DNA from: a virus
Direction: 5' to 3' (one strand)
DNA length: 30,103 bases
IMG/VR virus record: IMGVR_UViG_3300042301_001264
Coordinates: 1 to 30,103 of that record
The first letter of the stretch is position 1; every line of letters starts with the position of its first letter. The position numbers and the translations under genes were made by a program. Shown here piece after piece: positions 21,580 to 25,149 of the stretch. Below the pieces are notes generated by a model that saw nothing but the letters and a program-made list of their open reading frames with translations, made no database searches and was not told the DNA's origin.

Positions 21580-21795
21580 ATGTCACAAACAATCCAAGTA
21601 AACCCTGTAGAATTGGCTACTTACTTAGCCCAATCTCAATTAGATACGATGTATCAAACAAGTGAAATCTTCTATCCCTATTTGGATAGTGATGACGATG
21701 ATGAGCCCTCCAAATATACAGAAGAAGGGCAAAAACATTTTGACAATTGGTATGATTGGTATTATGGCGTAGTAACAGGACACAAAATTAATTAA
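21580..21795 (+). CDS. Small acidic protein of unknown function
   Basis: A 71-residue protein (MSQTIQVNPVELATYLAQSQ) with a helical start and an Asp/Glu-rich middle (DSDDDDEPSKYTEEGQ) followed by a Trp/Tyr-rich end. No family recognised. It has an A/C-rich leader (CTATAAAACAAACGT) and lies in an unbroken small-gene operon. Confidence 0.5.
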   Translation: MSQTIQVNPVELATYLAQSQLDTMYQTSEIFYPYLDSDDDDEPSKYTEEGQKHFDNWYDWYYGVVTGHKIN

Positions 21796-22998: not shown

Positions 22999-24240
22999 AT
23001 GCCAACAACAACAGAAGAGCAAGATGTACTTCATTGTGCTGATTGCTCAACAGAAATAACAAGCGAAGATTATGTAGACAATGTAGGTGACCCTATATGC
23101 GAAGATTGTAACGACAACTATCACTCATGCGCTGGTTGTAGTGATGTTATCCACAGCGATGATACTTATTTCGCAAATGATGACTCTTGGTGTAATGATT
23201 GTTACGTCAACAGATTTTCTACATGTGATGATTGTAATGAAGTAATTCGCAACGACGATATATGCCAAGTCCATGGTAGAAGTGGTAGTGAAAGATATGT
23301 ATGTGATGATTGTCGTTCTGATTACTATTGGTGTGAGAGTTGTGATGAGTATGTTCATGAGGATAACTATTGTCAAGACGATTTGTGCAATGATTGTTAT
23401 AACGATAGATATGGTGACGATGATGATGACGGTAGCAGCAGCAGTAAAGAAATCATACGCAGCTACAATTACAAACCTACCCCTAAGTTCTACAAGGTGT
23501 CCGAGAATGACAACGTGTATCTAGGTATTGAGTTAGAGGTAGAGCGTGGAGATAGTAATGTAACACACAAGGCTATGGCTGAAATGGTTAGCAATGACTT
23601 CTTATACTTCAAGAGTGACGGTTCACTTAACAATGGGTTTGAGATTGTAACCCACCCTATGACTATATCGTATATCAAGAAGCATAAGAATGTATGGGCA
23701 GATATACTTAACCTATTGCGTAGCAACAAGTATCGTAGCTATGACACTCGTACTTGTGGTATGCATATCCATATCAGCAAGAATGCCTTTACAACCTGGC
23801 ATCTATATCGCTTCATGAAGTTCTTTGTTGACAATAGTGACTTTGTTACCAAGATATCTCAGCGTAAGATAGAGAACCTTGACCGATGGGCAGCCCTTAC
23901 CGATGACCCAAGCGAGAGTACTAAAGAGTACACACAAGAGACGCTTATGTACAAGGCAAAGAAAAAGCGTGGCAATAGCAAGCGTTATCTTGCTGTAAAT
24001 TTACAGAATGATAATTCAGTAGAAGTTCGTATCTTTAGGGGTACGCTTAATGACTCATCGTTCTTCAAGAACATCGAGTTTGTTCAAGCGTTGTATGACT
24101 ATACCAAGTCTATCCCTGACCCTGATATGAGTCTAAAATCTTTTCTAACTTTTATTAAAGATAACAATGAATATCCGTATCTTCGCAAGTTCATTGCTGA
24201 TAAAAATATTAATCCTTTCACTAACAATCAAAACAATTAA
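22999..24240 (+). CDS. Zinc-ribbon amidoligase (COOH-NH2 ligase superfamily)
   Basis: The 413-residue protein has two parts. Residues 1-135 carry a series of CxxC pairs (C13/C16, C34/C37, C44/C47, C65/C68, C76/C79, C102/C105, C112/C115, C130/C133) that should form several zinc ribbons. After an Asp/Ser linker, residues about 172-400 match the putative amidoligase family: LGIELEVE (175-182), SDGSLNNGFEIVTHP (206-220), CGMHIHIS (253-260), AVNLQN and VEVRIFRG (341-348). Relatives of glutamine synthetase, these enzymes are predicted to join a carboxylate to an amine using ATP. The glutamine amidotransferase gene follows after 3 bases, so the two are likely partners. The substrate is unknown. Confidence 0.75.
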   Translation: MPTTTEEQDVLHCADCSTEITSEDYVDNVGDPICEDCNDNYHSCAGCSDVIHSDDTYFANDDSWCNDCYVNRFSTCDDCNEVIRNDDICQVHGRSGSERYVCDDCRSDYYWCESCDEYVHEDNYCQDDLCNDCYNDRYGDDDDDGSSSSKEIIRSYNYKPTPKFYKVSENDNVYLGIELEVERGDSNVTHKAMAEMVSNDFLYFKSDGSLNNGFEIVTHPMTISYIKKHKNVWADILNLLRSNKYRSYDTRTCGMHIHISKNAFTTWHLYRFMKFFVDNSDFVTKISQRKIENLDRWAALTDDPSESTKEYTQETLMYKAKKKRGNSKRYLAVNLQNDNSVEVRIFRGTLNDSSFFKNIEFVQALYDYTKSIPDPDMSLKSFLTFIKDNNEYPYLRKFIADKNINPFTNNQNN

Positions 24241-24243
24241 ACT

Positions 24244-25149
24244 ATGTGTATCGCAATCGTAAATCCAAAAGCAGTAACCCTTAAGAAACAAATCCTACAG
24301 AATTGTTGGGATAATAATAATGATGGTGCAGGTATCCTGTATATCAATAACAACAAAGTAGTAGCCAAGAAAGAAATGACTGACTTCAATATCTTCTATG
24401 GTTATTATCAAGAAGCCAAGCGTTCAGGTAATGACGTTATCCTTCACTTCCGTATCGGTACAAGTGGTGGTGTTAACGAACACAACTGTCACCCATTCCA
24501 TGTACAAGATGATACATGGTTTGTACACAATGGTATGTTAGATGTTCATGTCCCACACAACAGCCCTATATCTGACACCCAGATATTCAACAATGGGTTC
24601 CTCAAAGGCTTACCTAAGGACTTTATGTATAACGATACTTTGCTTGACCTTATTGAGTATAGTATAGGCAATGGTAACAAGTTCATATTCTTTAACGAGC
24701 ACGGCCATTGGCGTATCGTCAACGAGCAAGCAGGTACGTGGGACTTGGGTTGTTGGTTCAGTAACAAGTCTTATAGTTATAGTTATAAAAAACCTACGTA
24801 CAATAACTATACGTATGGTAGTGCATACTCCCCAAGTACAAGCGTAGGTTATCCTCGTGTGTACAATGATTGGGACGATACCTATGATGTTAAGTCTGAA
24901 TACAAATGGGATAGCGACACTAATAGTGAGGATATGATGTGTGAGTCTTGTTGTGAGTTATACCACAAAGATGAGTTAGAAGAGTTGCCTGATTTCAATA
25001 ACGCTATGGTATGTTGGGATTGCTATGACTCTATGATGTATGAGATGTATGGCGATGAATACATTAGCGAGCGTGATGAAGAAATTGTCCACTATAATAA
25101 ATCTTACGACCAACCAAAGTCAGCTTATGACCCTTTGGCTTGGAAATAA
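24244..25149 (+). CDS. Class II glutamine amidotransferase with C-terminal zinc ribbon
   Basis: The 301-residue protein starts MCIAIV; after Met removal Cys2 is the N-terminal nucleophile of the Ntn-hydrolase fold, which releases ammonia from glutamine. Other family marks are DGAGILY (27-33), LHFRIGTSGG (67-76), NCHPFHV (81-87) and FVHNGML (93-99). The glutaminase part ends near 170. A Tyr/Ser-rich linker (175-210) and a CxxC...CxxC ribbon (C233/C236, C257/C260) follow. It is shorter than PurF or GlmS and lacks their synthetase domains; the neighbouring amidoligase could supply the ligase function. Confidence 0.78.
   Translation: MCIAIVNPKAVTLKKQILQNCWDNNNDGAGILYINNNKVVAKKEMTDFNIFYGYYQEAKRSGNDVILHFRIGTSGGVNEHNCHPFHVQDDTWFVHNGMLDVHVPHNSPISDTQIFNNGFLKGLPKDFMYNDTLLDLIEYSIGNGNKFIFFNEHGHWRIVNEQAGTWDLGCWFSNKSYSYSYKKPTYNNYTYGSAYSPSTSVGYPRVYNDWDDTYDVKSEYKWDSDTNSEDMMCESCCELYHKDELEELPDFNNAMVCWDCYDSMMYEMYGDEYISERDEEIVHYNKSYDQPKSAYDPLAWK

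Follow-up and report, generated by a model that had tools for sequence, protein, structure and literature searches.

Two adjacent genes in an IMG/VR virus record (IMGVR_UViG_3300042301_001264) are predicted to encode an amidoligase with a glutamine synthetase (GS) fold and a class II glutamine amidotransferase (GAT), and their pairing is nearly obligate among the relatives examined. We lean towards reading them as a glutamine-fed, ATP-dependent amidating pair whose target is a carboxylate on a host protein or peptide. The stretch analyzed, hereafter the window, comprises positions 1–30,103 of the record (30,103 nucleotides). Both reading frames are open and start with ATG, and the gap of exactly 3 bases between them agrees to the base with the original prediction, which had placed a GAT gene directly after a ligase gene (Table 1). 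The pair is located in a rightward region beyond the leftward structural genes (terminase, portal, and major head protein), so both genes are probably expressed early. The nearest record (IMGVR_UViG_3300042555_000449, 62,956 bp) shares 98.7% identity across 12.3 kb and represents a close relative but a different virus; scans with a single window protein alone matched solely this near-identical virus. A 71-aa gene without a recognized family (window positions 21580–21795) has weak homologues in three other loci: in L017 and L026 they directly precede the ligase, and in L016 one follows the GAT.

Table 1. Predicted features of the amidoligase–GAT pair (window coordinates).
Feature	Position	Strand	Description	Evidence
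GS-fold amidoligase (PF12224)	22999..24240	+	413 aa, stop codon included	Pfam, AlphaFold2, Foldseek
Ligase N-terminal LIM-like tandem zinc-ribbon array	23035..23397	+	residues 13–133; 8 CxxC, strongly acidic	
Ligase catalytic motifs	23521..24033	+	residues 175–345	alignment of 81 homologues
Class II GAT	24244..25149	+	301 aa, stop codon included	profile, AlphaFold2, Foldseek
Glutaminase catalytic residues	24247..24579	+	C2, R70, T73, H83, H95-N96-G97, D111	54-homologue alignment, GlmS alignment
GAT zinc ribbon near C-terminus	24931..25032	+	about residues 230–263	AlphaFold2 model, motif count

The ligase matched Amidoligase_2 (PF12224; E-value 8.2e-10, 39.4 bits), passing the curated cut-off of 22, and its AlphaFold2 model (mean pLDDT 87) has a predicted GS fold. 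Foldseek ranked glutamine synthetase first (9e-5), followed by gamma-glutamylmethylamide synthetase (GMA synthetase) and PafA (E-value 5e-3), with LIM domains weakly behind these matches. Profile and fold thus bear out the original assignment as a COOH-NH2 ligase. The GS-like fold is accompanied by the acidic, His, and Arg catalytic motifs expected of PF12224, namely GIELE (E178, E180), DGSLNNGFE (D207, E215), GMHIH (H256, H258), R329, and VEVR (E342, R344), all invariant or near-invariant in 81 homologues (invariant: E178, E180, K205, D207, S209, G213, E215, C253, G254, H256, H258, R289, E342, and R344). In an hhalign comparison with a single E. coli GlnA sequence (overall probability only 20%), GMHIHIS aligned with GMHCHMS (H269, H271) and VEVR with IEVR (E357, R359). 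The spacing of 8 between D207 and E215 equals that of E212 and E220 in GS, and the ExE motif has the spacing of E129/E131, a reading that follows established GS biochemistry. The GS motifs for the metal and phosphate sites are invariant.

The GAT scored slightly below the Pfam cut-off for GATase_4 (PF13230; E-value 7e-5, 22.3 bits against 23), a limit that concerns detection, not biochemistry, and the class II assignment stands on fold and profile evidence. It is backed by PHROGs, and the AlphaFold2 model (mean pLDDT 81, mostly >90 in the catalytic domain) was most similar to the glutaminase domain of GlmS (Foldseek E-value 8e-7), then to PurF and EgtC. The Ntn class II residues checked are all present, with a Cys nucleophile behind Met1 and the glutamine-site R, T, H, HNG, and D. 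Across 54 homologues, C2 was near-invariant and the remaining catalytic residues were invariant, and the R..T, HP, and HNG motifs line up with E. coli GlmS. We assign the protein to the class II GATs with predicted glutaminase activity, as originally proposed. Loss of catalytic residues had been named as evidence that would count against the pair; instead, they are conserved in both proteins, and both look active as judged from these alignments.

Relatives were collected with the ligase from IMG/VR (best 80 of at least 514) and from bacterial and archaeal genomes (best 80 of 357, mostly gut Clostridia), a selection in which distant members are under-sampled. Ligases were grouped at 70% amino acid identity, and a GAT was sought within 1.5 kb. 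Among the matches listed, one was found in 71/73 testable groups, downstream of the ligase in 70, with a median gap of 2.5 nt (≤35 nt in 58/70). The two unpaired ligases belong to Clostridioides phage AR1086-1 (L006, a ligase without CxxC motifs) and to L104. In the reverse scan from the GAT, likewise confined to the best 80 matches, a profile-detectable ligase occurred at 72 of the 77 testable loci among the matches listed, and the remaining five (L215, L220, L223, L235, and L209) adjoin a divergent GS-fold ligase below Pfam detection. The alignment of these divergent ligases retains E180, E182, D207, S209, G213, E215, C253, G254, H256, E342, and R344; CGGHIN/H/T replaces CGMHIH, and their N-terminal region is mostly cysteine-poor. 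Every testable GAT locus among them (77/77) therefore has an adjacent ligase partner. The conserved pairing across other phages that the original prediction proposed as a check is near-obligate, and the lack of co-occurrence that it named as contrary evidence is not the case. Together with the structure models, near-universal pairing excludes chance as the source of the observation.

Adjacent pairs were present in Methylophilales phages MEP401 and MEP402, a Manatee Spring podovirus, Mycobacterium phage Marvin, and unannotated faecal contigs, and in a Christensenellales phage the two genes were separated by 1.1 kb. In Clostridia elements and in L043 the GAT is another class II subtype, detected by Pfam as GATase_6; the ligase thus retains a glutaminase partner even where the GAT has been swapped. 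Catalytic-domain distances of ligase and GAT were correlated in a mirror-tree comparison (r 0.90, 54 pairs, 0/2000 permutations). No fused ligase–GAT protein occurred among the matches listed. Three phages (L034, L035, and L042) carry two tandem ligase genes with a single GAT, an arrangement suggestive of ligases that act in pairs or as heteromers, or of two different substrates. Approximately 3.5 kb 5' of the unpaired amidoligase in L104 (2061–4150) lie two short genes resembling nucleotidyl cyclases; two PycC-type matches came from this neighbour set, whose members the match table leaves unnamed.

The original count of about eight CxxC pairs in the ligase proved to be exactly eight (residues 13, 34, 44, 65, 76, 102, 112, and 130), a number reached or exceeded in 3/10,000 shuffles of residues 1–140. 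They pair as 13/34, 44/65, 76/102, and 112/130, with 6 to 7 residues between units. In a canonical LIM domain, 2 residues separate the paired zinc fingers, so we call the array LIM-like rather than LIM. A profile search retrieved the LIM proteins PINCH and FHL1 (E-value 8e-5), a match to be read with caution given the cysteine-rich composition. The GAT was described as ending in a zinc ribbon; the ribbon is there, with two CxxC motifs (233 and 257) behind a disordered linker (about 182–226), but some 40 residues follow it. Residues 1–150 of the window ligase contain 41 D/E versus 7 K/R, and net acidity extends to the N-domain of 80/81 ligase homologues and to the GAT tail in 54/54. This charge on both domains disfavours docking on nucleic acid, one of the options first raised, and the LIM-like resemblance and acidity would fit protein binding rather than nucleic-acid binding.

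The zinc ribbons themselves are unevenly shared. Among the matches listed, dereplicated phage-type pairs carried them in both proteins (27), in the ligase only (5), in the GAT only (5), or in neither (4), whereas the 20 dereplicated Clostridia-type pairs had them in the ligase and none in the GAT. Matched ribbons as a rule of the system were rejected because either protein can be without them, and the proposal that shared ribbons mean docking on a common partner is correspondingly weakened. In the L017–L031 group and the divergent ligases, the length of the N-terminal region is retained and most cysteines are gone, a pattern that a scaffold role would fit better than joint docking on one zinc-ribbon receptor. 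In Clostridia GATs (e.g. L145:8735–9667), the place of the phage zinc ribbon is taken by a tail resembling helical repeats, e.g. FGYSPEDIDxLLxxGFTxDEIEEYLY.

No third gene was conserved across groups, so a link to a substrate through gene context is lacking. GGACT genes and a second COOH-NH2 ligase (PF14395) were each found in 0/45 pair-bearing virus contigs among the matches listed, the 63-kb near relative included, while both positive controls (StenR_269 and L173) were detected; the pair therefore looks self-sufficient. A tyrosine integrase was present in 5/45 of these contigs among the matches listed, and most carriers accordingly look lytic, though the contigs are mostly incomplete. Around Clostridia pairs lie resolvases, DUF3846 genes, and relaxases, together with scattered matches to defence systems (AbiE, PycC, and type I RM), a gene content that marks putative mobile-element territory. 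In several elements of gut Clostridia (L005:6167–6550 and similar) the GAT is followed by a DUF3846 gene; DUF3846 and resolvases were rejected as a third conserved partner because their recurrence is confined to Clostridia elements. In a Thermoproteota MAG, one small contig (L173:1–6373) carries an amidoligase, a 129-aa gene, a GAT, and a PF14395 COOH-NH2 ligase in that order. This contig could be from an archaeal virus or misbinned, and its gene order is a possible bridge from the pair to larger phiEco32/LUZ24-type systems. An archaeal occurrence of the pair is unsupported, with a match in 1/29 Thermoproteota genomes.

An association of phage amidoligases with GATs was predicted by Iyer et al. 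in 2009, as related in two later papers (PMC10580990; PMC11318856). The phiEco32/LUZ24-like clusters (UFV-P2, PMC3890496) likewise place a PF12224 amidoligase together with a class II GAT among their early genes, but add a PF14395 ligase, an ATP-grasp protein, and a GGCT/AIG2 gene, whereas the window has two genes only. It shares the joint ligase and GAT of the phiEco32-type cluster, lacks the extra PF14395 and GGACT genes, and differs in the LIM-like zinc ribbons fused to its ligase. The window pair is a variant of these systems. In MEP401 and MEP402, overlapping ligase and GAT genes precede the replication genes, and the authors noted the pair (PMC10580990); there, the long N-terminal region of the ligase has only 2 CxxC and the GAT has no zinc ribbon. 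Marvin gp105–gp106 are an adjacent zinc-rich PF12224-type ligase and GAT with about 26–29% identity to the window proteins, separated by a 79-nt gap and both annotated as glutamine amidotransferase domain proteins. The Marvin study reportedly noted the amidoligase–GAT association.

Among cellular enzymes, GlnA and GMA synthetase share the fold and active-site motifs of the window ligase, but GS forms dodecamers that use free ammonia and glutamate, whereas the window ligase has a glutaminase partner and an extra docking array. PafA, the Pup ligase, is a GS-fold ligase that acts on proteins, yet has no glutaminase, unlike the window ligase family with its nearly always adjacent GAT; we know of no Pup-like protein for the window pair. 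MurT–GatD is also a two-protein system for glutamine-fed carboxylate amidation, built on unrelated folds (a Mur ligase and a class I type GAT).

We consider amidation by the pair likely. The two genes would form a bipartite glutamine-dependent enzyme in which the class II GAT hydrolyses glutamine through its N-terminal cysteine and hands ammonia to the GS-fold subunit, which would use ATP to convert a carboxylate, via an acyl phosphate, into a carboxamide. The ligase's acidic LIM-like array, like the smaller end domain of the GAT, may serve as a protein-docking module outside the chemistry, selecting the target or keeping the complex together. The target would most likely be a host protein or peptide, modified early in infection at an Asp/Glu or C-terminal carboxylate to the presumed advantage of the phage. 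We rate peptide tagging, also raised in the original prediction, below amidation, since the partner, a glutaminase, would supply ammonia. Ammonia donation should nevertheless not be taken as proven, since the gamma-glutamyl hydrolase EgtC is likewise among the GAT's fold neighbours. The two unpaired ligases, the lack of fused ligase–GAT proteins among the matches listed, and the lack of a third conserved gene also count against this reading. More tentatively, and with some doubt, we propose a protein-amidating enzyme of phages and mobile elements whose acidic LIM-like array docks host proteins and which turns specific carboxylates into carboxamides, so that the host is taken over or disarmed.

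It seems unlikely to us that the substrate instead lies in the cell wall or at the cell surface, where amidation of a stem peptide of peptidoglycan or of a surface carboxylate would keep out superinfecting phages or modulate lysis. Two papers citing Iyer et al. 2009 assign such a role to phiEco32 (PMC10580990; PMC11318856), and glutamine-fed wall amidation has a precedent in MurT–GatD (PMC3267633). Yet the MurT–GatD folds differ from those of the pair, no wall gene is linked to it, and its spread across phages with Gram-negative or mycolate hosts and across Clostridia mobile elements makes one wall substrate hard to sustain; the Thermoproteota contig, perhaps misbinned, would further place a pair in a group without peptidoglycan. 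We give a similarly low probability to amidation of a small molecule, be it a metabolite, a nucleotide, or a signal, in an auxiliary metabolic or counter-defence step. GlmS, PurF, and GS do act on small molecules, and the MEP401 (PMC10580990) and ZRK32 papers use the label "auxiliary metabolic genes", but large LIM-like docking arrays are unusual in such enzymes and the pair comes without accompanying pathway enzymes.

Two further explanations appear quite improbable. Under one, the ligase would form a gamma-glutamyl amide for the GAT-like Ntn hydrolase to cleave off or edit, in the manner of EgtA and EgtC in the ergothioneine pathway. EgtC does appear in the Foldseek list of the GAT and glutamate is a common substrate of GS-fold ligases, but GlmS tops that list, the glutaminase residues are conserved, and the swap in Clostridia to another Pfam-detectable glutaminase is easier to reconcile with ammonia supply than with a specific hydrolase. 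Under the other, the pair would be cargo of defence or inter-element conflict that shields the element, or the host carrying it, instead of serving a lytic cycle. In an Ignavibacteriae MAG (L097:9456–12203) the pair adjoins QatD, QatC, and QatB, a same-strand QatA not being obvious, and the defence matches near Clostridia pairs, which carry no control for background enrichment, point the same way. PADLOC, however, has no model for ligase or GAT, and the few tyrosine integrases, counted on mostly incomplete virus contigs, argue against a cargo role.

The amidoligase–GAT idea, predicted in 2009, and the pair in MEP401 and Marvin were already on record; this analysis adds how nearly obligate and how widespread the two-gene form is, along with the exchanged GAT subtype, the ligases that have diverged beyond the reach of Pfam, and the zinc-ribbon test. 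The literature searched yielded no report of an experimental substrate for a phage amidoligase–GAT system. To our knowledge, no phage-made post-translational carboxylate amidation of host proteins has been demonstrated. The two-gene form reduces the system to its likely core, and the same pairing in very distant phages and mobile elements indicates that its target is probably worth finding. Marvin, a phage of the laboratory strain M. smegmatis mc2 155, also carries this form, so that its substrate can be sought by deleting the genes and by mass spectrometry. Should the target indeed be a protein, carboxylate amidation would join ADP-ribosylation and acetylation among the ways in which phages rewrite host proteins.
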